Assembly: GCA_025354985.1 (NCBI GenBank)
Contig: JANXLU010000042.1
Span: 1 to 64,000, forward strand
Direction: 5' to 3'
Source of the DNA: Chloroflexota bacterium
Lineage (GTDB): Bacteria; Chloroflexota; Anaerolineae; J036; Brachytrichaceae
Length of the DNA: 64,000 nucleotides
Part shown: positions 47,449 to 63,641 of the stretch, piece by piece
How the letters are laid out: the number at the start of each line of letters is the position of its first letter
Numbering within the stretch: position 1 is the first letter of the stretch
Made by a program: the position numbers and the translations under genes
The notes under the pieces: generated by a model
Seen by the model: the letters and a program-made list of their open reading frames with translations, nothing else
The model's database searches: none
What the model was told of the DNA's origin: nothing

Positions 47449-48570
47449 ATGAAAATTGATTCGATTGCCGTCCACCATTACAGGTTGCCGCTGGATCCGC
47501 CGTTTCAGGCAAGCTGGGATCCGCGACCGCGCACGAGTCACACGGCGACGCTTGTACGGGTTCGCGCCGGAGATTATGAAGGGGTTGGCTCGGGCGATGC
47601 CATGTTGGGGTTTGCCGGGAACGAGCACTTGTTTATCGGGCATGATCCCTTCAACATCGAAAGGCACGTGCACATTCTCGACAACTTGCAATTTATGTAT
47701 GGTCGCATGTGGCCGCTGGAAGTGGCGCTCTGGGATTTGATGGGCAAGATCAGCGGCCAGCCCGTCTGGCAGATGCTGGGCGGTCGCAGTAACACGGTAC
47801 CACTGTATGCCAGCTGCGGTGAACGCAAGCCGGCCGAGGCCAGAGCAGCCAGCGCCATGGCGCTCAAATCACAGGGTTATCCAGCCCTGAAGATACGATT
47901 TCATGCTTCAGATCCACGGGAGGATATCGCGGTAATTCGGGTAGTGCGGGATGCCATTGGCCCCGACATGCACATATTGGTGGATGCCAATCAGGGCTGG
48001 CAAATGCCTTGGGACAGCAGCCCATCGTGGGATTTTAAGACCGCGCTTTGGGTTGCCGACGCCCTGTATGAATTGGGAGTGTATTGGTTGGAAGAGCCAC
48101 TTCACCGGCATGACTATGCGGGCCTGGCGAACCTGCGTAAGCGCGCCAAACTGCGGATAGCGGGTGGCGAGGGCAACCGTGACATCAGTGAGCAACGACA
48201 GTATCTAAATCATGGCTGTTTTGACGTGTATCAAGCGGATGTCGTTTGGTCCACCGGTTTGTGGCAGGCGGCGCAACTGGCACGCGAGGTGCAGGCCGCT
48301 GGATGTATTTTTACGCCGCACACCTGGGGTGACGGTCTGGTGCTGATGGCAAACTTGCATGTGTCCGCCGCCGTAAGCAGCGCGCCATTTGTGGAATTTC
48401 CATATGATCCACCCGGTTGGACATTTGACCGACGCGATTTTATTTTGAAGTCACAGATCGTGCCCACGGCACCGGCATCGATCACCCTTTCGGATGCGCC
48501 CGGGTTGGGCGTGGAGATTGACTGGGTGGGAATTGAAAAGTATCTGGTTCATACGGGCACACTGGCATGA
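47449..48570 (+). CDS. Mandelate racemase/muconate-lactonizing (enolase superfamily) enzyme
   Basis: ALWDLMGKISGQPVWQMLGG, ALKIRFHA, ILVDANQGW, WLEEPLHRHDYAGLANL, CIFTPHTWGDGL. Confidence 0.92.
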   Translation: MKIDSIAVHHYRLPLDPPFQASWDPRPRTSHTATLVRVRAGDYEGVGSGDAMLGFAGNEHLFIGHDPFNIERHVHILDNLQFMYGRMWPLEVALWDLMGKISGQPVWQMLGGRSNTVPLYASCGERKPAEARAASAMALKSQGYPALKIRFHASDPREDIAVIRVVRDAIGPDMHILVDANQGWQMPWDSSPSWDFKTALWVADALYELGVYWLEEPLHRHDYAGLANLRKRAKLRIAGGEGNRDISEQRQYLNHGCFDVYQADVVWSTGLWQAAQLAREVQAAGCIFTPHTWGDGLVLMANLHVSAAVSSAPFVEFPYDPPGWTFDRRDFILKSQIVPTAPASITLSDAPGLGVEIDWVGIEKYLVHTGTLA

Positions 48571-49481
48571 TGCGGATAGATTTAAACGCTCCTTCCTGCT
48601 TGTTTTTGGGCATTGCGCCAGTCGAGGGTGAATGGTGTGAAATCGGTGTCGCGTTGACGCACCCGCCTTTGGTTATGAGTGCCACGCCGGCAGACACCTT
48701 TGAAGTGTCTGGAGGCCGAGCCGACTTTACATATGGTCATGCGTTACGACATTTTTCGGCGCGGGCGATACAACCGGCCGGCAATATTGAGATTGAATTT
48801 GGCTTGCACAGTTGCATGGGTATTGGCTCGGATGCGGTGCACACACTGGCGGTATGTTCCATCACCAATCAGCTACTTGAAATGGCACCGCTGAAGCGCG
48901 CGGCCATGGCCAAGGCCATCGGCCTGCCGCTAAACAGCTTTGAGTGGCATGCATTTGAACAAGGTGGTGTCGTTGCAACCGGACAAAACAATGTCTTGCA
49001 ATGGCGGGTCGAACTCTCAAAGACGACGGATGATGACGAGGATTGGGTATGGGTGTTGGTATTGCCACGTTTGGCCGACAACGTGGCTGACGATGAGGAA
49101 ATGCAGAAGCGTGAATGGCGGTGGCGCACCCGCAAGGAGCTGCCCTTTAACGATCTGCAAACTGCGGCGCGCCTAATAACCGCGGGCGCCACCAACCGCG
49201 ATTTTGAAATGTTTTGCGACGGTCTCATGGGATTGAATCAAACGACCACAAGGCTCCATACGTCGGCCGACTCGGAAGTGATCAGGATGTTTAAGGAAGG
49301 TGGAGCGCGTGCCTGGGGTAAGTCACTGAGTGGCAAAGGCTTGTACGGCCTTGTAAAGGGAACGCGAGCCAGCCAGATGCTTCGAGACGGGATCATGGCA
49401 ACGCTTGGGTATGAGGGGCCGGCCGTATTTGGCGCGCTTACCAACAACGTGGGCGCCGAGATGAAAATCGAACAAACATGA
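48567..49481 (+). CDS. GHMP-superfamily protein resembling beta-ribofuranosylaminobenzene 5'-phosphate synthase (MptG-like)
   Basis: EIGVALTHPPLVMSA, FGLHSCMGIGSDAVHTLAV, FEQGGVVATG, WVWVLVLPRLAD, GARAWGKSLSGKGLYGLV follow the beta-RFAPS layout; ATGA overlaps on both sides. Confidence 0.65.
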   Translation: MMRIDLNAPSCLFLGIAPVEGEWCEIGVALTHPPLVMSATPADTFEVSGGRADFTYGHALRHFSARAIQPAGNIEIEFGLHSCMGIGSDAVHTLAVCSITNQLLEMAPLKRAAMAKAIGLPLNSFEWHAFEQGGVVATGQNNVLQWRVELSKTTDDDEDWVWVLVLPRLADNVADDEEMQKREWRWRTRKELPFNDLQTAARLITAGATNRDFEMFCDGLMGLNQTTTRLHTSADSEVIRMFKEGGARAWGKSLSGKGLYGLVKGTRASQMLRDGIMATLGYEGPAVFGALTNNVGAEMKIEQT

Positions 49482-51025
49482 CAACAGCAACTGAACGTGG
49501 CTCCGAGAGACGGGCGAACCGCCGTCAAGCGCGCAAGCGCACACCAATAGAGAGCCTGCCCTGGCGTGTGCTCAAAAATCCAAATCCGCCAGTGCAGTTT
49601 TTGCGCGAGGATCAGGTTCAACTTTTGCATGAGTCCTCAATGCATATCGTCGAGAACATCGGCATCGATTTTCTGGACGCCGACACGCTGGATATTTGGT
49701 CTGCAGCGGGCGCAAAAGTCGACAAGAAAGCCCAGCATGTTTGGATTGACCGCCATTTGTTGATGGAATTGGTCCGCAAGGCGCCCGCGCAATTTACCTT
49801 GCGCGCGCGGGATCCGGGTAAAAACGTTACCGTTGGCGGGAATAACACCGTGTTTGTGAGCACCAGCGGCACGCCATTTGTAAGCGACTATGACAATGGC
49901 CGTCGACCGGGAACACTCGCCGATGTGCAAAACCTGGTTCGTTTGATCCATCAGTGCCCGCCGATTAATGTGGTGGAGAGCCAAGTGACCGAGCCGCAGG
50001 ACATCCCGGTAATGCACCGACATTTGGAGCGCGGTCTCGCAATATTTACGTTGAGTGATAAACCGGTGGCTCAGGCAGCCCATGGCAACGTGGTCTGCGA
50101 AGACTGCCTGAACATGGCGGCAATCGTGTTTGGCGGACGGGAAGAAATCAAGAAGCAGCCCGTGTTTGCGGCGATTATCAATGCCAACAGCCCGCTGCGG
50201 TATGACACGAACATGGCCCAGGGTTTGGTGAGCTATTCGCGTGGCGGGCAACCCCTGGTGGTCACGCCATTTATCCTGGCGGGGGCAATGAGCCCGATCA
50301 CGATGGCGGCGGCCGTGGCGCAACAAAATGCCGAGGCCCTGGCCGGCATTGCCCTTACGCAAATCTGTAATCCTGGCGTGCCGGTTATCTATGGCGGTTT
50401 TACGACGAATATTGACCTGGCAACCGGGAGCCCGGCATTTGGAACACCTGAAGGTGCCTGGGCATTCTTTGCGGGAGCCCAGCTTGCCCGGTTCTACGGT
50501 CTGCCGTATCGTGGCAGCGGTGGGTTGAACACGAGCAAGGTGGTGGATGCGCAGGCGGCCTATGAAAGCCAGATGTGCTTGTGGCCGACCGTCCTGAGTC
50601 ACACAAATTGGGTCCAACACGCGGCTGGGTGGCTGGAGAGCGGCTTGGTTTGTTCTTTCGAAAAATTCATTGTGGATGTGGAGTGTGTGGCGATGATGCA
50701 GCAATTGTATGAACCAGTCGAAATTAGCCCGGAAACGCTCGCGCTCGACATGATCAAGGAGATTGGCCCGGGCGGACATCACTTCGGCACGTCCCACACG
50801 TTGGCGCGGTATCAAACGGAGTTTTATCGCACTGCAGTGGCGGATCGGCTTGCGATTGGGCAGTGGACGGATAACGGAAAATTAGACGCGGGTCAGCGAG
50901 CGCATGGTATTTGGAAGGAACTGCTGGCCAGTTATGAGCCCCCGCCGATTGACGTTGCCATTAACGAGGAACTGACTGACTACGTGGCTCGCCGTCGGCG
51001 AGAGTTGCCGGTCAGTTTTGTATAA
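49478..51025 (+). CDS. Trimethylamine methyltransferase (MttB) family protein, non-pyrrolysine type
   Basis: LHESSMHIVENIGIDFLDADTLDIWSAAGAKVD, VFVSTSGTPFVSDYDNGRRPGTLADVQNLVRLIHQCPPINVVESQ, GAMSPITMAAAVAQQNAEALAGIALTQICNPGVPVIYGGF; reads through 515 codons with no in-frame amber. Confidence 0.93.
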   Translation: MTTATERGSERRANRRQARKRTPIESLPWRVLKNPNPPVQFLREDQVQLLHESSMHIVENIGIDFLDADTLDIWSAAGAKVDKKAQHVWIDRHLLMELVRKAPAQFTLRARDPGKNVTVGGNNTVFVSTSGTPFVSDYDNGRRPGTLADVQNLVRLIHQCPPINVVESQVTEPQDIPVMHRHLERGLAIFTLSDKPVAQAAHGNVVCEDCLNMAAIVFGGREEIKKQPVFAAIINANSPLRYDTNMAQGLVSYSRGGQPLVVTPFILAGAMSPITMAAAVAQQNAEALAGIALTQICNPGVPVIYGGFTTNIDLATGSPAFGTPEGAWAFFAGAQLARFYGLPYRGSGGLNTSKVVDAQAAYESQMCLWPTVLSHTNWVQHAAGWLESGLVCSFEKFIVDVECVAMMQQLYEPVEISPETLALDMIKEIGPGGHHFGTSHTLARYQTEFYRTAVADRLAIGQWTDNGKLDAGQRAHGIWKELLASYEPPPIDVAINEELTDYVARRRRELPVSFV

Positions 51026-54286: not shown

Positions 54287-54305
54287 GTTCTGCGGATTCT
54301 ATAAT
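54274..54305 (+). promoter_or_regulatory. Candidate promoter driving a near-leaderless PhnD-like gene
   Basis: TTGACG (54274-54279) and perfect TATAAT (54300-54305), 20-nt spacer (longer than ideal); ATG at 54317. Confidence 0.35.
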
Positions 54306-54316
54306 GCGTCGCTCTT

Positions 54317-55687
54317 ATGCCTGAGTTGACGCTTACGTCCATGCTTGCGGGAAACGCGGACCCGCTCTACGCTCAGCTTGCCCAATATCTGGCCGGCAAG
54401 CTTGGTTGTGCGATTAGTATTGCCTTGCCTGCAGATTGGGGCAGGCGGCAGGCCATGTTGGACGATGGTCGGGCCCAGGTCGGCGCGTTATGTGGCTGGC
54501 CGTATACAAAGGGAACGGATCATCTTGGCCTGCTGGCGGCGCCGGTAATGATGGCACCCCGGTATGGCGATAGACCGATTTACTTTTCGGATGTCATTGT
54601 TCGGGCTGACCGCCCGCAGCGATTGTTTTCCGACCTGCGCGGGTCGCGCTTGGCGCTTAATGAGATGGCATCCTTTAGCGGGCACGCCATCGTGTGCGCG
54701 GAACTGGATGCGATCGGCGTTGTCCACGGATACTTTGGGTCGGTGATTGCCACGGGTAGCCACGCAGCGTCAATCCAAGCCGTGATCGATGGCGGCGCGG
54801 ACGCCGCCGCCATCGACAGCACTGTCCTCGCGCGAGCCCTGGCCATTGACCCCGCCCTGGCACGTCACATTCGTATACTGGTGGCGCTGGGGCCCAGCCC
54901 AATTCCACCGATTGTGTGTCATTTGGATGTTCCCGTGATGATGCGTGACCGGTTGCGAGACGCCCTGGTGGCTATGCATAGGGACGAACTGGGAGCGGTG
55001 CTTTTGTCAGAGTTTGGCTACGCTCGATTTCAATCGGTGTCAGACGCCGATTATGATGACATTCGCCGCAAGGGTGCCACAACCCAATGGGTGAATCTGA
55101 CTGCACAGGGTCCTGACCGGTCATTTGCGGCGCGAGCCGAAGTGGAGGCTGACCGCAAGGTTCTTAACGGGTTGAAAAGCGATTTGTTGCGCGCCTTTGA
55201 ATCTGGTTCCATGGCCTTTGAGCAGAGCCTTGCGTCAGATTCAGGTCTTGGACGACGACTGATCGTGGCGAAACCCGAGGCGTTTGTTGCGAATAAATCA
55301 TTAAGCGTCGTGGGCTTTTTCGGCCAGCGGAACTGGGACGCACCAGCAGCCATCGTGGCCGAAATTGGCGTCGTAGATGCCGCACTGGTTCGCGAAATGG
55401 TGGATCATGAACATGCGGTTGCGTATTGTTCAGCTGAACTGCCGGACGGCAACTGGGGAAACTTGGTCATTATGGCGGCTCCGGAGGGAGTGCATACCTG
55501 GCGGGAAGGTGCGCGGCACAAATATGCCGCGGAATCGCTGTCGGCACGGTATTACGACACTGTGAGGTTACATCATGGCACGTTGTCAGACGGGCTTGGA
55601 TCCGAACAACTTAAACTTCACCGGACCAGGCTGTTTGACTACCGACATGGGCAGACTTGGACCGCAATCCGTGAATTGGACGCGTAG
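54317..55687 (+). CDS. PhnD-like substrate-binding domain without signal peptide, fused to an unassigned C-terminal domain
   Basis: LARGE N-terminal PhnD-type pattern: GRAQVGALCGWPY, YFSDVIVRADRPQRLFSDLRGSRLALNEMASFSGHAIVCAELDAIG, GSHAASIQAVIDGGADAAAIDSTVLARAL; C-terminal ~190 aa not assigned; begins MPELTLTSMLAGNADPLYAQL with no leader. Confidence 0.7.
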   Translation: MPELTLTSMLAGNADPLYAQLAQYLAGKLGCAISIALPADWGRRQAMLDDGRAQVGALCGWPYTKGTDHLGLLAAPVMMAPRYGDRPIYFSDVIVRADRPQRLFSDLRGSRLALNEMASFSGHAIVCAELDAIGVVHGYFGSVIATGSHAASIQAVIDGGADAAAIDSTVLARALAIDPALARHIRILVALGPSPIPPIVCHLDVPVMMRDRLRDALVAMHRDELGAVLLSEFGYARFQSVSDADYDDIRRKGATTQWVNLTAQGPDRSFAARAEVEADRKVLNGLKSDLLRAFESGSMAFEQSLASDSGLGRRLIVAKPEAFVANKSLSVVGFFGQRNWDAPAAIVAEIGVVDAALVREMVDHEHAVAYCSAELPDGNWGNLVIMAAPEGVHTWREGARHKYAAESLSARYYDTVRLHHGTLSDGLGSEQLKLHRTRLFDYRHGQTWTAIRELDA

Positions 55688-55720
55688 GCGGTTATCCAAC
55701 TGGCTGACGCAGGGTTTGAC

Positions 55721-57097
55721 ATGGGCATGATTCAAGATGCCGGGCCGGACCCGGACAACGCCCTACGACGACGCATGGCTGCCACGGGCATTGGCTACGC
55801 CGGAATCGACGGGGCATGGTGGTTGCCGGCTATTGCGCCATTTGTGCTGCCCAAAGCAACCGAGAACGCGCTGTCGGCGGCTGGACAAGCGTGTTTTGCC
55901 TTGCTTGACGTTGTTGCCGATTACTATGGCAAGGACCCGGATCTTACCGAGCTAATGGATTTCAAGCGACCGGGGCACATTCCGGGGTGGCATTCGCGGC
56001 AACCCGTGCTGTCACTGCGACCAGATTTTCAGCTGACAGGTGAAGGCGTTGTTGCCACAGAATTAGAAATATGTCCCTCAGCCCACGGATACGCGCATGC
56101 GATGCAGGTGGCATATGGATGTAAGCAGGATATTGTCCCAGCCGTCGCGCGGTTGCTGGGTGGGCGTGAGCTACTTATTGTGACCACACCCGAATGGCGC
56201 GAGTTTATGTGGGAGCAACTGGCACTATGCCACGCGCTGGGCGAATTGGGCGCGCGTGCCCGACTGTATTGCCCGGAATCTGTTGCTCGGTTGCAAAGGC
56301 GCGTGCGCGCCGGCGAACTGTGGCAACCACCGATATTTGGTCTGAGCCGGAAACCGGACGGTTGGGATGATGACATCACGGGGCGGATTGCGCGACATGG
56401 TTATGCGGATTTCATAGTTGGTCGGACCGAGTGGGATGAGATCTTGGCAAATAACGCCAGCCCGGTCGTTTTCAGGTTCGGATACTTTGAGAATTTTGAA
56501 TCCGGGCTTTTGGAAGAGATGAAAATGCTGGAGCGAACGGGTGCGACCTTTCTTAACCCGACCTCGTTTGCATATGACAGCAAGTCGATTCTGGCGGCGG
56601 TTGGATTGGCGTCGGTTCGCAAGGCACTTGGTCAGGCAAACGCTGGTGCGCTGGCGGCAGTCGATGCGTGCATCCCGGAAACGGTAATGCTCACTGATGC
56701 GGTGATGCAGCGACTCGTGCGCGAACGGCGCGATTGGGTGGTCAAATTTGCCGGCTTTGACCAGGGCAACTCGGCATGGGGCGGGCGAAGCCTGCAGGTA
56801 GGTGCGCAGTTTACGGACGACGCATGGTCGGAGGTGCTCAGGCAATATAACGACCTGCCGTTCCCGGTAGTCGCCCAGCGGAACGCACCCACCCGACGAG
56901 CCAGCGTTTTTTATTATGACGAACGTGGTGCAACGCAGTTGTTGGTTGATGGTGCCACCAGACTGCGCGCATTTTTTCTGCGTGAAACGAGGACGTCGGA
57001 GTCACGCGCAGTCGGAGTACATATCACCGTATCGGCCAAACAGACGCAGGTTAGCGAAGCCAGTGATGCAGTGCAAGCACCAGTCGCATTTGAATGA
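55721..57097 (+). CDS. ATP-grasp-like protein of unknown function
   Basis: C-terminal block RDWVVKFAGFDQGNSAWGGRSLQVG...FPVVAQRNAPTRRASVFYYDERGATQLLVDGATRLRAFFLRE has ATP-grasp-like order; N-terminal two thirds unrecognised. Confidence 0.45.
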   Translation: MGMIQDAGPDPDNALRRRMAATGIGYAGIDGAWWLPAIAPFVLPKATENALSAAGQACFALLDVVADYYGKDPDLTELMDFKRPGHIPGWHSRQPVLSLRPDFQLTGEGVVATELEICPSAHGYAHAMQVAYGCKQDIVPAVARLLGGRELLIVTTPEWREFMWEQLALCHALGELGARARLYCPESVARLQRRVRAGELWQPPIFGLSRKPDGWDDDITGRIARHGYADFIVGRTEWDEILANNASPVVFRFGYFENFESGLLEEMKMLERTGATFLNPTSFAYDSKSILAAVGLASVRKALGQANAGALAAVDACIPETVMLTDAVMQRLVRERRDWVVKFAGFDQGNSAWGGRSLQVGAQFTDDAWSEVLRQYNDLPFPVVAQRNAPTRRASVFYYDERGATQLLVDGATRLRAFFLRETRTSESRAVGVHITVSAKQTQVSEASDAVQAPVAFE

Positions 57098-57148
57098 GCA
57101 GCCAGGGCTTGATCCACGCATCGTGTCAACGGCGATAATGGATTGAAT

Positions 57149-57328
57149 ATGGGCCAGTTGCAACGTGTGTTAGGCGGTATTCTGCTTGTGGTGGGCGCCG
57201 TTTGGTTGATACAGGGCGCATCGGCACTGTTTGGCGGTGCCGGTAGCGGCTCGCCAATTGGCTCAATCGCCGGTTTCGCTATAACCGCACTTGGTGCGCT
57301 GCTGCTCATAACCGGCGATACCGTTTGA
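57149..57328 (+). CDS. Two-TM micro membrane protein, copy 1
   Basis: MGQLQRVLGGILLVVGAVWLIQGASALFGG...FAITALGALLLITGDTV. Confidence 0.6.
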   Translation: MGQLQRVLGGILLVVGAVWLIQGASALFGGAGSGSPIGSIAGFAITALGALLLITGDTV

Positions 57329-57356: not shown

Positions 57357-57545
57357 ATGCGTTTGGGAATGATCATCGGTGGTGCGTTAATGGTCTTGTT
57401 GGGTGGCGTCTGGCTGTTTCAAGGAATTGGTATTCTGCTTGGAAGCTTTATGACCAGCCAACCGTTCTGGGCAATCATGGGTGTGATTGTCCTGGCCGTG
57501 GGCGCGATCGTTTTGATTACGGGGATCCGGCGCAAGAAGGCCTAA
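57357..57545 (+). CDS. Two-TM micro membrane protein, copy 2
   Basis: MRLGMIIGGALMVLLGGVWLFQGIGILLGS...IVLAVGAIVLITGIRRKKA; similar to the previous ORF in layout. Confidence 0.65.
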   Translation: MRLGMIIGGALMVLLGGVWLFQGIGILLGSFMTSQPFWAIMGVIVLAVGAIVLITGIRRKKA

Positions 57546-57769
57546 AGAACCTCGTCGGTTCTTGTGTCGCGCTGGAGCGTTATCCAACGCCGACAGCCGT
57601 AGACGTGGAACCAGCGCTCGGTTTGCGGCCCCTGCGGATTGTTGCGCATAAACGCCCGATCAACATCACGCGCATCGGCATCCGTGATGGCATCGGGGAC
57701 GCTGGTCAGCTCGCCGTAAAGAAACTCGGTGATAGGGCGGACGCCACAGTTCGGGCAGGGTAGATTCAT
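57542..57769 (-). CDS. soxD: Sarcosine oxidase delta subunit
   Basis: CPNCGVRPITEFLYGEL...NPQGPQTERWFHVYGCRRWITLQRDTRTDEV. Confidence 0.92.
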   Translation of the reverse strand: MNLPCPNCGVRPITEFLYGELTSVPDAITDADARDVDRAFMRNNPQGPQTERWFHVYGCRRWITLQRDTRTDEVL

Positions 57770-57771
57770 AT

Positions 57772-58980
57772 TTAGTGTGTGCCTGCCGATCCGCGATCGG
57801 CCATTGTTCGGTCAAGGGCGAAGCGATCCAGGGAGAACGGCGCGATTAGGTCGGGTGTTTTGCCGGTGGAGATGGCCGCGGCAAGTTGTTCGCCGCTTGC
57901 GGGTATGGCCTTGAAGCCCCATGTTCCCCATCCGGTTGTAATGTAGAAGCCCTCGACCCCGGTTTGGCCCATGATGGGCGAATAATCCGGGCTCATGTCG
58001 CACACGCCGGTCCATTGGCGCAATACCTGCAGGTTTCGCAAGAACGGCAGCAGGGTGACTGCGCGAAAGGCGCAGCCCTGCAAGAATTTGTAGTCAGAAC
58101 GATAGGAATAACTGGGCTGCCGATCTATTTCGGCGCCCATGAGCATCTCGCCCCGCGCCGTTTGGCTGACATAGAACAGCAGTGGCCCCGAGCTGAGGAT
58201 GGGCGCAAAGGTTCGCTCATAGTGATTTGTCACAAATGCCTGGAGCTGGTGCGTGCGGATGGGCAGACGCAGACCGGCCATGGCCGCAACGCTGGTTACG
58301 TGCCCGCCAACCGCGCACAGTACCGCCCCGGCAGCGATGTCGCCCTGAGTGGTTTGCACGCCGGTCACACGGTTGCCAGCAATTTGTAGACCGGTTACCT
58401 CGATGCGTTGGTGCACGTGCGCGCCTCGTTTCATAGCGCCTTCGGCAAATGCCCAGACCACCCGGTCATGCCGTGCGGTGGCGCCGCTGTGATGATAGGC
58501 GGCGCCCACCACCGGGTAATGACCCCCTCCGGTCATGTCAAGCTCCGGGCACATTTTTTTGACCTCATCCGGCCCGATCCAATCGGTCTTTGCTCCAAAC
58601 GCGGTGTTGACGGCGGCCCGCGCTTTTTCAACGCGCATATTTGCTTCACTGTGGGCGAGGCCGATCATGCCCTTTTCCTTGTGCATGACCCAGCGATCGG
58701 TTTCGGCCTCTAGCGTCGCATACAAATCCACGCTGCGCTGATAGAACCTGACCGCTTCGGGGATGCCGTAGTTGCTGCGAATAATGGTGGTGTTGCGACC
58801 ACTGTTGCCGCCACCGATATAGCTACGCTCAAGCACGGCAACGTTTGTGATGCCATGACGGGTGGCCAGATAGTACGCAGCTGCAAGGCCGTGCCCGCCC
58901 CCGCCGATGATCACCACGTCATATGATTTCTTCGGCTGTTGCCAGGTGAGCGACACGCGTTGTTCAATAAATTCGTTCAT
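57772..58980 (-). CDS. soxB: Sarcosine oxidase beta subunit
   Basis: VVIIGGGGHGLAAAYYLATRHGITNVAVLERSYIGGGNSGRNTTIIRSNYG; FYITTGWGTWGFKAIPASGEQLA. Confidence 0.95.
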   Translation of the reverse strand: MNEFIEQRVSLTWQQPKKSYDVVIIGGGGHGLAAAYYLATRHGITNVAVLERSYIGGGNSGRNTTIIRSNYGIPEAVRFYQRSVDLYATLEAETDRWVMHKEKGMIGLAHSEANMRVEKARAAVNTAFGAKTDWIGPDEVKKMCPELDMTGGGHYPVVGAAYHHSGATARHDRVVWAFAEGAMKRGAHVHQRIEVTGLQIAGNRVTGVQTTQGDIAAGAVLCAVGGHVTSVAAMAGLRLPIRTHQLQAFVTNHYERTFAPILSSGPLLFYVSQTARGEMLMGAEIDRQPSYSYRSDYKFLQGCAFRAVTLLPFLRNLQVLRQWTGVCDMSPDYSPIMGQTGVEGFYITTGWGTWGFKAIPASGEQLAAAISTGKTPDLIAPFSLDRFALDRTMADRGSAGTH

Positions 58981-59378
58981 TGCAGACGCTCCCCCAGGTC
59001 GGCGGCAAATGGTTGTTGTACCAGCACGAGCATTCGCCGAGGTTCAATCCAGAGCTTGACCGGCAGACCGGCGACTTCGCCTTGCGCAAAAACCGGTCGC
59101 GTCGTTGGAAGCTGCCACTCGCAATTTGCGCTCACCCAGGCTGTTGCGGCTTGAGTCGAAAGCCACGTTCCGACAAAGCTTGTATCGTGCTCAATGATTG
59201 CGTGCGGGTCGTTAATGACGGGCGCGGCCGGGGAGCCCAACCAAAACAGCTCGTCTGGCGCGGTCCTCATGACGATTGCCGTTGTTGAAGTCTGAATGCC
59301 ATCCAGAAGGGCAGGCGTGCTCACGATCCGGGTTAGTGGAAACCGATCAAGCTTTGGCACGGGCACCCTCCTTATCAT
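58977..59378 (-). CDS. soxG: Sarcosine oxidase gamma subunit (divergent)
   Basis: Position between soxA and soxB; WLGSPAAPVINDP...TWLSTQAATAWVSANCEWQL...VKLWIEPRRMLVLVQQPFAADLGERL; ATGA overlap with soxB. Start uncertain (ORF opens at 59417). Confidence 0.75.
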   Translation of the reverse strand: MIRRVPVPKLDRFPLTRIVSTPALLDGIQTSTTAIVMRTAPDELFWLGSPAAPVINDPHAIIEHDTSFVGTWLSTQAATAWVSANCEWQLPTTRPVFAQGEVAGLPVKLWIEPRRMLVLVQQPFAADLGERLQ

Positions 59379-61545
59379 AGAAGGGCGTCTCGGTGCGTTG
59401 GGCTGGTCTGCCATCAATCATGACGCGGTCCGGCGCCAAATCATTTGAAAGTTTGAGCCAAGCGAGCATCACGGTTTTACCCAATATTGGTGACCAAGTT
59501 GCCGAGGTGACATAGCCGGCATAGTTGCCATCGACCGTAAGGTTTGCGCCTTCGATGGGGGGCGGACCCTCCATCGACAGACCACAGAGAATTTTGTCAA
59601 GCGAAACCTTGTTCGTGCGAAGCACCGCATGTTTGCCAACAAAGTCAGGCTTATCCAGCTTAACCGCCCACTCATGATGAATGCGACGCGGGGTGCTGTC
59701 AAAGTCCGTATCCTGGCCAACGATGATATGGCCTTTTTCAAGGCGGAGTTTTAGCAGGGCTTCAAGTCCATGTGGCCGGATGTTGAGCGACTTGCCCAGA
59801 TCAAGCAGAGTCCGCCACAAGACCGGCGCGTTTACGGCAGCATGGTGCAGCTCGTAACTCAACTCGCCCGTAAAGCTCAGGCGGAAAATGCGGCAGGGTA
59901 TGCCGGCAACGTGCGCCTCAACATGCGACAGAAATTCGGGTGGTTTTTCCAGCCCGGCGCGTGCGAGCAATTCTTTGGCCAACGGGCCGGTCACGTTGAT
60001 CGCACCCAGAGACATTGTCTGGTTGAGGATGCGCACATTCAGGCCCCAACTTTCCGCCCAATCCCGCACCCACAGCTCGGCTGTTGTGGCCCCGCCACTG
60101 GTAAAGGTCAGGGTATAGCGGGTGTCGCTGATTTTGCTGATAAGACCGTCATCCAACACGTAGCCTTTTTCGTCGAGCAAGAGAACGTAGCGGCTCATTC
60201 CGGTCTTGATCGTGCTGACCTTTGTTGGGTAGAGCCGATCGAGCAACGTCAGCGCGTCCGGACCTGAGATCAGCATTTTGCCAAGCGTGCTCACATCCAT
60301 GATCGACACTGCCTCGCGCACCGCCCAATACTCGGCCTGCCAGTCGCCATAGTTCCAGGGTCGCCACCAGCCGCCGGCGCGCTCCATGTGCGCGTGGGCC
60401 GCGCGATGGACGCCGTCGAGCGGGGTCCGCAGCGTGACGTGGTGATGCCCACCCGCCGCCACCTCGCCCATCGTTATTGGCCGGGCAAGCGGGCGGGCCG
60501 TAAATGCCGGTTGCAGGGTGCCACCCTTATTGGCCAGGAAACTGCGCACGTAGGGAAGACAGACGCCTCCCTGGCATGTGCCGGTGCCGGCCAGCGAGGC
60601 GCGCTTGACCAATTCAAGTTCATGGAAACCCCGGTCCCATACCGACTGCAAATCCGCCACGCCCACCTGCGAACAGTGGCAAACCAGACCGTGTGCAGGG
60701 CAATTTGGAACATCGGAATTGGTTGCTGCATCGCCGACAACGCTCACGCGGACGCCCGGCAGACCGGCCGCCATGCGATGGAGCATATTTCTTGGGGTAG
60801 TACCGAGGTCAATCACCGCCGTGTCGCAACCAACGTGCTGTTCAAGTCCCTGGTCGTCGCGCACGACCACTGCGGTCACGTTGGACTCGCCTTCAAAGCG
60901 AACCAATCGGTTGGCATCATTGATCACAACGATGCGGCCAAGGGACAGACCGGCTGCCTGTAATTGCTGCGCCGCCCGGGCGGTCATCAGTCCAGCAAGC
61001 GAGTTGCCCAGCGCCACGGGGTGTAATTCAGCTGCACCGGTGGCCACGATAATTTCCTGGCGCACGTGTACGATGAGCATGCCCTGCGTCGTTCGCGCCA
61101 CGACCTGAGCGCCAGGATATATGCCGATCACGTCCTGGCCCTGCGCTGCATCCAGGGTTACAACGGTTTGGCCGGCCGTTCGCGCCAGTTCCGCCGCCGC
61201 CAGGCCGGACTTTCCTTGACCAATAACAACCACGTCAGCGTGCTGATGCCGGGCGTTTGTCGTGGGTTCCACGTGGTGGGTTTGTGGAAGCGCGGGAACG
61301 GCATGGGCGTGGTGTGTGCACGCAACCACGCACCCTGGGCGCGCTGGCACCTGGCATGTGCGAACATAGGCCACGCCGTCGATGGTTGCGAGGCAGTGCG
61401 GACAATCGCCGCCCAGGCACAGGCATCCGCCACCGGTTGGGTGGTGCTGGTTTCGCAGCATCGCGACAAGGACGCTGTCGCCCTTTACGAACGGGACGGG
61501 CTGGCCATCGATGATTAGTTTGAGGGGTTGGCTCGATTCGGTCAT
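59347..61545 (-). CDS. soxA: Sarcosine oxidase alpha subunit-like, compact form
   Basis: 2Fe-2S-like N-term GGGCLCLGGDCPHCLATIDGVAYVRTC; VVVIGQGKSGLAAAEL; BFD-like CHCSQVG...GTCQGGVC; GcvT-like C-term REAVSIMDVSTLGKMLISGPDALTLLDRLYPTKVSTIKTGMSRYVLLLDEKGYVLDDGL. Start MTESSQPLK overlaps the upstream stop by 4 nt. Confidence 0.88.
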   Translation of the reverse strand: MTESSQPLKLIIDGQPVPFVKGDSVLVAMLRNQHHPTGGGCLCLGGDCPHCLATIDGVAYVRTCQVPARPGCVVACTHHAHAVPALPQTHHVEPTTNARHQHADVVVIGQGKSGLAAAELARTAGQTVVTLDAAQGQDVIGIYPGAQVVARTTQGMLIVHVRQEIIVATGAAELHPVALGNSLAGLMTARAAQQLQAAGLSLGRIVVINDANRLVRFEGESNVTAVVVRDDQGLEQHVGCDTAVIDLGTTPRNMLHRMAAGLPGVRVSVVGDAATNSDVPNCPAHGLVCHCSQVGVADLQSVWDRGFHELELVKRASLAGTGTCQGGVCLPYVRSFLANKGGTLQPAFTARPLARPITMGEVAAGGHHHVTLRTPLDGVHRAAHAHMERAGGWWRPWNYGDWQAEYWAVREAVSIMDVSTLGKMLISGPDALTLLDRLYPTKVSTIKTGMSRYVLLLDEKGYVLDDGLISKISDTRYTLTFTSGGATTAELWVRDWAESWGLNVRILNQTMSLGAINVTGPLAKELLARAGLEKPPEFLSHVEAHVAGIPCRIFRLSFTGELSYELHHAAVNAPVLWRTLLDLGKSLNIRPHGLEALLKLRLEKGHIIVGQDTDFDSTPRRIHHEWAVKLDKPDFVGKHAVLRTNKVSLDKILCGLSMEGPPPIEGANLTVDGNYAGYVTSATWSPILGKTVMLAWLKLSNDLAPDRVMIDGRPAQRTETPFYDKEGARAKA

Positions 61546-63641
61546 TTCAGCTCGCTTAGCTGTGCCACCGGGATGTGGCAGGAAATTCGGTGACCTACAC
61601 CGGACGTTTGCCATTCCGGCACGTCGGTTTCGCAGCGGTTGTTGGGGACCAATCCACGTCTTGGACAGCGGGTGTGAAATCGACATCCACTTGGTGGATT
61701 GAGCGGGCTGGGAACGCTGCCGTCAAGGCGAATGCGGCTCTGGGCAATCGAAGGATCCGGTATTGGTACTGCGGCCAACAGGCTCTCGGTATACGGGTGG
61801 TTGGGCGGTGAATAGATTGCCTCGGCCGGGCCAATCTCCATGATCTGGCCGCAATACATCACCGCGATGTAATCACAGAAAAACCGCACCACGCTGAGGT
61901 CGTGGGCGATAAAGATCATGGTTGTGCCATGCTCCTTTTGTATGCCCAACAACAGATTAAGCACCGCGGCTTGGACGCTGACATCCAATGCCGAGACCGG
62001 TTCATCCGCCAGCACCAGGTCTGGGCGACCTGCGAACGCACGTGCGATACCAATTCGTTGCTTCTCTCCGCCGCTGAGTTGGCGGGGCAGCCGGTCGTAA
62101 TAGCTGTCATCGAGTTTGACGGCATGTAGCAGGCGCGTCACCTCACCACGCACCTCTGCCGGTGGGACGATTTTGAACCGCCGAAGGGGTCGTTCGATCT
62201 GGCGCCCGACCGAGTAGGCCGGATTGAGGGTGGCATCCGGATTCTGGAACACCATCTGGAGTTCCTTTACCAAACCTATGTCTCGGTGGCGGGCGTTTTT
62301 GTCGAGGCTGAAGCTCATGAAGCGCGCGCTGCCACCTGTCATATCTTCGAGACCGATGATTGTTTTAACCAGCGTGCTTTTACCGCTGCCGCTCTCGCCG
62401 ACCACGCCAAGAGATTTTCCACGAGGTAGCTGAAAGCTGACGCCATCGACGGCCTTTACGTTGTTCTGTTTGCCCAATCCGAACGCACCCAACAGGGCAT
62501 TTCCACCCGATCGATAGTGAGTGCGCAACATGTCCACGTCGAGCACCATCTCCGGGAATTCCGGACTTGTCAGTGGGGCGGTCATTAGTGACGCATCACC
62601 GGTGGACAGGAAGTCCTTTGGGTCGAGCTGTTCCGCCAATTCGCATCGTACCTTGTGTGATTTTGAGGTGCCCAGCGCGGTCAAGTTGGCCGAACCAATC
62701 ACGTCGGGAATTTCACGCATGATTTGCCGATTGACGGAACAGGCGGGCTTGGCATGATCGCACCGTGGTTCAAATACACATCCGGGCGGCAATGCGCTTG
62801 GCGCCGGCACACGACCACGTATTGGATGCAACATGCTGGTGGCCTTGTCGCTCCCGAGCCGCGGTATTGCGCGCAGCAGCCCTTGTGTATAGGGGTGGCG
62901 CGGGTTTGCAAAAATTTCACCAACCGACGCCAGTTCGACCAATTCACCGGCATACATGACGCCGACACGTTCGCACACGCGTGCGACCACGCCCAGATTG
63001 TGGCTTATAAACAAAATTGCGGTGTCTATGTCCCGGCGCAAATCAGCGATGAGGTCGAGGACAGCCGCCTCGATTGTGACGTCAAGCGCGGTCGTGGGCT
63101 CATCCATTATCAACAAAGCGGGATTGTTGAGCAGTGCCATGGCTATGACAATACGCTGTTGCTGACCGCCCGATATTTGGTGCGGGTAGCGTTCGAGCAC
63201 GGCCTCGGGCACCGGCATATAGACGCGTTTGAGCATGGTGATGCAGCGTGCGCGCGCGTCCTCACGGCTCATATTTTGATGGGTGGTTAACACCTCATTC
63301 ATCTGTTCGCCAACGCGCATGACCGGGTTGAGCGAGGTCATGGGGTCTTGATAAACCATGCTGATCTTGTTGCCGCGCAGCTTGCGCAGCTCGTTCTCGC
63401 TTTTGCCGACCAGCGATTCGCCTTGGAACACAATGTCCCCGGAGGCCACCTTGCCGTTTCTCCCGAGATAGTTCACCAAACCAAAGGCGACGGTGCTTTT
63501 GCCGCAGCCGCTTTCGCCAACCAACCCCAGTGTTTCGCCCTTGAAGATATCAAAGCTCACGTCGCGCACGGCGCGAATGTCGCCCTTGCGCGTTTCGTAG
63601 CTGATGGCTAGGTTTTTTGCGGAGATGACAGGTACTTCCAT
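61542..63641 (-). CDS. Fused dipeptide/oligopeptide ABC transporter ATPase (OppD-OppF type)
   Basis: Two complete ATPase units: GESGCGKSTVAFGLV/ISGGQQQRIVIAMAL and [50 protein letters not shown]; oligo_HPY tails. Confidence 0.96.
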   Translation of the reverse strand: MEVPVISAKNLAISYETRKGDIRAVRDVSFDIFKGETLGLVGESGCGKSTVAFGLVNYLGRNGKVASGDIVFQGESLVGKSENELRKLRGNKISMVYQDPMTSLNPVMRVGEQMNEVLTTHQNMSREDARARCITMLKRVYMPVPEAVLERYPHQISGGQQQRIVIAMALLNNPALLIMDEPTTALDVTIEAAVLDLIADLRRDIDTAILFISHNLGVVARVCERVGVMYAGELVELASVGEIFANPRHPYTQGLLRAIPRLGSDKATSMLHPIRGRVPAPSALPPGCVFEPRCDHAKPACSVNRQIMREIPDVIGSANLTALGTSKSHKVRCELAEQLDPKDFLSTGDASLMTAPLTSPEFPEMVLDVDMLRTHYRSGGNALLGAFGLGKQNNVKAVDGVSFQLPRGKSLGVVGESGSGKSTLVKTIIGLEDMTGGSARFMSFSLDKNARHRDIGLVKELQMVFQNPDATLNPAYSVGRQIERPLRRFKIVPPAEVRGEVTRLLHAVKLDDSYYDRLPRQLSGGEKQRIGIARAFAGRPDLVLADEPVSALDVSVQAAVLNLLLGIQKEHGTTMIFIAHDLSVVRFFCDYIAVMYCGQIMEIGPAEAIYSPPNHPYTESLLAAVPIPDPSIAQSRIRLDGSVPSPLNPPSGCRFHTRCPRRGLVPNNRCETDVPEWQTSGVGHRISCHIPVAQLSELK

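Follow-up and report, generated by a model that had tools for sequence, protein, structure and literature searches.

What does a PhnD-type binding fold do inside the cell when no transporter genes adjoin it and an amine oxidase gene does? Intracellular reuse of periplasmic-binding folds is known mainly from a few enzymes (HemC, MqnA/MqnD and the THI5-type proteins). The 64,000-nucleotide stretch of Chloroflexota DNA analysed here, which we call the window, raises the question through two open reading frames on the + strand, ORF1 (P0001; 54317..55687, 456 aa) and ORF2 (P0002; 55721..57097, 458 aa), with 33 nt between the ORF1 stop and the ORF2 ATG. These coordinates and this spacing agree with the original prediction, in which the pair formed a two-gene cassette. 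Since both have near full-length homologues at 46–52% identity in sister species, they are not chance ORFs.

ORF1 begins with an unexported binding fold

The binding-fold half of ORF1 (residues 1–253; 54317..55075, + strand) is supported by PF12974, by PDB alignments and by comparison of the ligand pocket. PF12974 (Phosphonate-bd) matches residues 17–246 with an E-value of 3.7e-36 and 125.2 bits, against a gathering cut-off of 27. The N-terminus opens directly at the fold. As the ORF1 frame has a TAA four codons 5' of the ATG (TAA TGC GTC GCT CTT ATG), there is no room for a signal peptide, and a missed one is excluded for this frame; neither an export signal nor a lipobox was found in ORF1. 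The predicted PhnD-type fold without a signal peptide is thus borne out. The homologues of the fusion in three sister genomes (46–48% identity) retain the whole ORF1 architecture.

With the phosphonate-phosphite ABC binding proteins PhnD, PtxB and HtxB (PMC5700983), ORF1 shares the PF12974 fold and a Ser-x-Ser/His oxyanion motif. It differs from them in being unexported, in scoring only 70.9 bits with the PhnD model TIGR03431 (curated cut-off 261.1) and in having neither PhnC nor PhnE alongside. The sole PhnE of the genome above the curated cut-off lies on another contig (C85), in agreement with the claim that no ABC permease or ATPase adjoins the gene. Failing the score, export and operon tests, ORF1 falls outside the PhnD transporter family. 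A ligand of the 2-aminoethylphosphonate type is also disfavoured: the equivalents of the 2-aminoethylphosphonate residues E177 and D205 of Escherichia coli PhnD are Thr and Pro.

The best PDB sequence matches of ORF1 belong to the AioX/ArxX/ArrX branch (E 2e-19). The arsenite/phosphate pocket of AioX comprises seven residues (Y88, C106, Y131, S161, S163, H192 and D210), of which the cysteine binds arsenite (PMC5908839). In the PDB alignment, ORF1 has six of the seven, including the equivalents of Cys106 and Asp210: C59, Y89, S119, S121, H149 and D167 correspond to AioX C106, Y131, S161, S163, H192 and D210, respectively. The position of Tyr88 is Trp in ORF1 and variable in other relatives. All six equivalents are retained in 24/24 cytosolic binding proteins compared from Chloroflexota and Acidimicrobiia, and the secreted Chloroflexota relatives in the comparison mostly have the same residues. 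With the pocket shared in this way, its conservation is a sign of AioX-like ancestry and does not prove an arsenic ligand, and the ORF1 pocket residues may have been inherited instead of selected for an intracellular role.

ORF1 differs from AioX, ArxX and ArrX in lacking a signal peptide and an adjoining sensor kinase, and in that its binding fold is fused to, or in other genomes paired with, a barrel domain. No cognate histidine kinase gene lies beside ORF1, the flanks being a DAO-family oxidase gene and the ATP-grasp gene. With neither export nor a kinase, ORF1 is not a proven AioX-type sensor.

The C-terminal domain has a predicted ABM-like barrel fold

We examined the C-terminal domain (CTD) of ORF1 (residues 254–456, ~203 aa; 55076..55684, + strand) using AlphaFold2, Foldseek and the conservation among 28 members. 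Neither Pfam nor NCBIfam gave a match to the CTD, in keeping with the earlier description of a C-terminal region of ~200 aa that could not be assigned to a family. The Pfam families of the dimeric alpha/beta-barrel clan matched neither the fusion at E 1 nor three free-standing CTDs at E 5, and the CTD had no match in plasmid records. The AlphaFold2 model (pLDDT 83.8, pTM 0.83) consists of a helix-hairpin extension and a beta-alpha-beta-beta-alpha-beta unit. Foldseek matched it to ABM-type monooxygenases, dimeric ferredoxin-like proteins and aldoxime dehydratase, the likeness to ABM proteins being at the superfamily level (about 10–15% identity), and a CTD profile found a weak match to a YqjZ chain in the PDB (E 0.0017). 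The predicted fold is an ABM-like dimeric alpha/beta-barrel (ferredoxin-like). A clear match of this domain to an accessory domain of known function had been named as evidence against a novel system; what emerged was a known fold and no known function.

The same predicted core is seen in the ABM-type barrel proteins SnoaB, Rv0793 and YqjZ, and in LsrG and ArqI (PMC12274486). The CTD differs from these in an extra N-terminal ~75 residues, in having no Pfam match, in its partnership with a binding-protein fold and in its own set of invariant residues. In CTD numbering, to which 253 is added for ORF1 numbering, V79-G80-F81, Y117, N129, L130, H148, Y160, R164 and H166 never vary in the 28 CTDs; the polar members of this set are Y370, N382, H401, Y413, R417 and H419 of ORF1. 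Such a pattern suggests an active site or a ligand site rather than a scaffold. Two ABM relatives have roles that are of interest here: the metabolite on which LsrG acts is small and phosphorylated, and ArqI responds to glyoxal (PMC12274486). By analogy, these roles would fit by-product handling by the predicted barrel.

The binding fold and the barrel form the conserved unit

Across 28 loci, mostly from Chloroflexota plus two from Acidimicrobiia, the binding half and the barrel half are fused in 4 and adjacent in 18, and so occur together in 22/28. At random placement we would expect well under 1%, a rough estimate that assumes at most four PhnD-like matches per genome and is not a computed statistic. 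The similarity matrices of the two halves in 23 genomes correlate with r 0.78, a value reached in 0/2000 permutations; shared ancestry was not removed from this comparison, and the correlation is as expected from co-inheritance. The conserved unit is the binding fold with the barrel domain, not ORF1 with ORF2.

The arrangement of the halves varies between lineages. Besides the window's own genome, 17 genomes of family f55 among 349 Chloroflexota genomes carry the CTD at E 1e-31 or better (one further genome with a marginal match was left out of this count), and in most of the f55 loci a free-standing binding protein gene directly follows the CTD gene. In genus g6, the CTD is a free-standing protein of ~220 aa, and the gene for the binding half, again without an export signal, lies far away in the genome. 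One MAG record (L055) has PhnD, CTD and oxidase genes in a single operon. A CTD profile and pattern search over 85,462 species, each represented by a single genome, returned eight loci from Chloroflexota and two Acidimicrobiia, several on the same contigs as close relatives already examined. This search reaches fairly close relatives only, and the spread of the CTD may be wider.

Acidimicrobiia were sampled through two loci only. In L056, the CTD gene is divergent from a PhnD-DAO operon. In L057, from a MAG, the CTD and PhnD genes are divergent from each other inside an island with MTTB, an Opp transporter, an enolase, SoxA and SoxB. The gene kinds of this island (L057:1-16513), from MTTB, the Opp ABC transporter and enolase to SoxA, SoxB and the PhnD-like and barrel genes, recur in the window, a likeness that suggests horizontal transfer or a shared methylamine island.

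Several other neighbourhoods were recorded. In four f55 loci (L114, L117, L118 and L119), a luciferase-like oxidoreductase gene, confirmed with Pfam in L117, and sugar-isomerase-like genes come after the barrel-PhnD pair in conserved order. In two more (L112 and L113), no PhnD-like gene is near, and the barrel gene shares an overlap with the end of a gene for an amino-acid permease (confirmed with Pfam in L112). On Rhizobium plasmids (L083 and L084), export-less PhnD-like proteins are encoded in catabolic clusters of the amine type; both clusters include NIPSNAP and aldehyde dehydrogenases, and that of L083 also RidA. We take NIPSNAP to belong to the same barrel clan as the CTD, and these clusters are possibly a loose parallel to the pairing of PhnD-like and barrel proteins.

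An amine oxidase gene is divergent from ORF1

The gene divergent from ORF1, P0003 (53117..54286, − strand), encodes an FAD amine oxidase of the DAO family (PF01266, E 9e-37), with synteny in the sister genomes G001–G003. Like the monomeric sarcosine and N-methyltryptophan oxidases it has a DAO match over its full length, supporting membership of the DAO superfamily, but it falls below their equivalog and subfamily cut-offs: 167 vs 480 bits for monomeric sarcosine oxidase (TIGR01377) and 188 vs 257 for N-methyltryptophan oxidase (PRK11259), the latter being the closest NCBIfam model. The window's genus (g1) is represented by four genomes, and in each of them the oxidase is divergent from the fusion, with start codons 22–30 nt apart (30 nt in the window and 22–23 nt in the three sister genomes). 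The 30-nt intergenic stretch of the window (54287..54316) contains a TATAAT at 54300–54305 and the ORF1-frame TAA at 54302–54304. A promoter scan found no full sigma-70 consensus in the region 54287–54316, and the oxidase and fusion transcripts may be leaderless.

Of the 28 loci, 11 have a DAO-family flavin amine oxidase gene next to the barrel gene or the pair: it is divergent in g1 (4) and g6 (3), in the same operon in L055, L104 and L110, and part of the PhnD-DAO operon in L056. In the three g6 genomes, the gene divergent from the CTD gene encodes a DAO-FAO_M-GCV_T protein of ~850 aa, similar to dimethylglycine/sarcosine dehydrogenases, and in L104 and L110 a homocysteine S-methyltransferase gene lies between the oxidase and binding genes, so that oxidase and methyltransferase genes together separate the CTD gene from the binding gene. 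Because the pair has no adjoining methylamine gene in most f55 loci, the link to the methylamine pathway may be lineage-specific.

The wider neighbourhood in the window is rich in genes for N-methylglycine oxidation, as had been proposed. In addition to P0003, there are genes for a sarcosine oxidase beta-like subunit (SoxB; 57772..58980, − strand; TIGR01373, E 6e-127, below the curated cut-off) and an alpha-like subunit (SoxA; 59347..61686, − strand), the latter with GCV_T, Fer2_4 and SO_alpha_A3 domains and a TIGR01372 match over its C-terminal part (E 1e-91). A small ORF that begins MNLPCPNCGVRPITEFLYGE (57545..57769, − strand) presumably encodes a SoxD-like subunit, judging by this motif. 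On the other side of ORF1, a trimethylamine methyltransferase family protein (MTTB; 49478..51025, + strand) is identified by PF06253 (E 2.6e-190). Two tandem small ORFs of 61 and 62 aa (57143–57328 and 57357–57545), membrane-protein-like and similar to each other by eye, sit between ORF2 and the sarcosine oxidase cluster, and a 304-aa ORF with no Pfam match (48567–49481) is flanked by a gene of the enolase superfamily on one side and the MTTB gene on the other.

ORF2 is a predicted ATP-grasp protein outside the module

ORF2 had no match in Pfam, NCBIfam or PDB sequences, and its distant relatives gave no convincing profile match. Because a profile search of the PDB sequences also gave matches at chance level only, its fold was taken from structure prediction. 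The AlphaFold2 model (pLDDT 84.2, pTM 0.87) matched human glutathione synthetase (2hgs) in Foldseek with E 5.3e-14, and the top 30/30 matches were of the GSS/GspS-like superfamily; a glutathione-synthetase/GspS-like ATP-grasp fold is therefore predicted. The ATP-grasp likeness proposed originally, for which this kind of structural check had been suggested, holds, whilst its restriction to a C-terminal block does not: the model aligns along its length with the eukaryotic-type glutathione synthetase/GspS-like proteins (2hgs, E. coli YjfC and YgiC, and the ligase Cp1B). ORF2 differs from these in its low identity (12%), its lack of a Pfam match and a WGGRS-type loop. Lys288, Lys342 and Glu114 are invariant in 18 sequences of the wider family, and position 116 is Glu or Asp; by motif, we assume that these residues map onto the ATP/Mg sites of human glutathione synthetase.

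The neighbours of ORF2 change between genomes. In the three sister genomes, its homologue is on another contig than the fusion, next to a GNAT-type gene (Pfam-checked in one), and in two g6 genomes the gene after it belongs to the arginase family, with HutG as its closest match. Among the 349 Chloroflexota genomes, those with the CTD and those with the ATP-grasp protein fall into families that do not overlap, the window's own genome excepted. ORF2 may be co-transcribed with ORF1 in that genome, the only one in which it lies downstream, and we judge it to be outside the conserved module.

Distant relatives of ORF2 (22–26% identity) have a gene for a KamA-type lysine 2,3-aminomutase after them on the same strand in 16 loci (L059–L061, L066, L068–L074, L077–L079, L081 and L082) from families f59, f61, f85 and f102, where it was recognised by a CRFCTR motif and by its sequence. 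It was not seen in the f48 loci (L062–L065, L067, L075 and L076). A kamA homologue also occurs in the window's genome, on a contig (C53) other than that of the window. The neighbourhoods suggest beta-lysine or a related amine as a putative substrate of the wider ATP-grasp family.

A proposed role for the module and its alternatives

Our preferred reading, to which we would give a probability of about one half, is that ORF1 represents an undescribed intracellular module of a binding fold and a barrel, accessory to the oxidation of N-methylglycines, with ORF2 a separate ligase that is its neighbour here only. The predicted folds are well supported, as are the observed fusion, adjacency and oxidase neighbourhood, and from them we infer the following chemistry. 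ORF1 would unite in one protein a cytosolic module that is otherwise encoded by two genes. Its binding half would take up a small anionic metabolite, bearing an oxyanion or carboxylate, from the cytosol through the Ser-x-Ser/His/Tyr/Asp/Cys pocket. The barrel half, probably a dimer, would transform the ligand, or hold and buffer it, through the invariant Tyr/Asn/His/Tyr/Arg/His set. The module would thereby provide an accessory step, either by-product handling or substrate conditioning, in the flavoprotein oxidation of N-methylglycines derived from betaine. More specifically, and tentatively, ORF1 might be a binding-protein-dependent enzyme, in which a formerly periplasmic oxyanion-binding domain passes a metabolite to the active site of a tethered or partnered barrel, as a new step of glycine-betaine/N-methylglycine catabolism in Chloroflexota and Acidimicrobiia.

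The main rival is an intracellular sensor, a doubtful alternative by our reckoning, in which the binding half would sense an oxyanion or a metabolite of the methylamine pathway and the barrel would pass the signal on to the oxidase or its expression, much as the periplasmic AioX and ArrX serve sensor kinases. The proximity of the binding half to the AioX/ArrX sensor branch in both sequence and pocket is consistent with sensing, as is the tight divergent layout with the oxidase, which is common for regulator-target pairs. Yet neither ORF1 nor the free-standing halves contain a DNA-binding, kinase or other output domain, and the invariant polar residues of the barrel resemble a catalytic or ligand site. 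The halves do have a two-component pair beside them in L102, though no conservation of such a neighbour was noticed. A less likely reading takes the binding half for a degenerate or moonlighting relic of part of a phosphonate/phosphite transporter, with no specific function and an incidental neighbourhood. The lack of an export signal and of adjoining transporter genes would suit a remnant, but the strict conservation of the pocket and the barrel set in distant genomes, and the recurrence of fused or adjacent halves, speak for a joint function under selection.

Less likely again is the cassette of the original prediction, read as a binding fold that delivers a substrate to the ATP-grasp protein for ATP-dependent ligation. 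In its favour are the 33-nt same-strand gap in the window, the ATP-grasp fold predicted for ORF2 and the presence of the two proteins in nearly the same genomes among 61 relatives (both in six, and the barrel domain only in G028). However, the five other relatives with both (G001, G002, G003, G020 and G022) have them on different contigs or far apart, the families separate in the phylum sample, and relatives of ORF2 have other partners (GNAT, HutG-like and KamA-type); by neighbourhood and distribution, the pairing is rejected as a conserved system. Least probable of all is a role in arsenic handling, in which the pocket cysteine would be a cytosolic binding site for arsenite or a methylated arsenical (e.g. 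an arsenobetaine product), on which the barrel would act. The invariant equivalents of AioX Cys106 and Asp210 fit such a role, and arsenobetaine is structurally analogous to glycine betaine, but in the loci read we noticed no gene for arsenic resistance, and the same cysteine occurs in secreted PhnD-like relatives and in the cytosolic rhizobial ones.

Among open-licence PMC papers, we found none on a cytoplasmic PhnD beside sarcosine oxidase, on PhnD-ABM fusions or on KamA with an ATP-grasp protein. The folds and superfamilies of the parts are known; what is new, as far as those papers go, is their stable intracellular combination and its oxidase neighbourhood. If our preferred reading of ORF1 as an accessory module is true, it would explain 'phosphonate ABC transporter' annotations that lack an adjoining transporter. 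The pairing predicts contact between the two halves and an anionic ligand, and the module may be a missing accessory step in the degradation of methylated amines by largely uncultured Chloroflexota.
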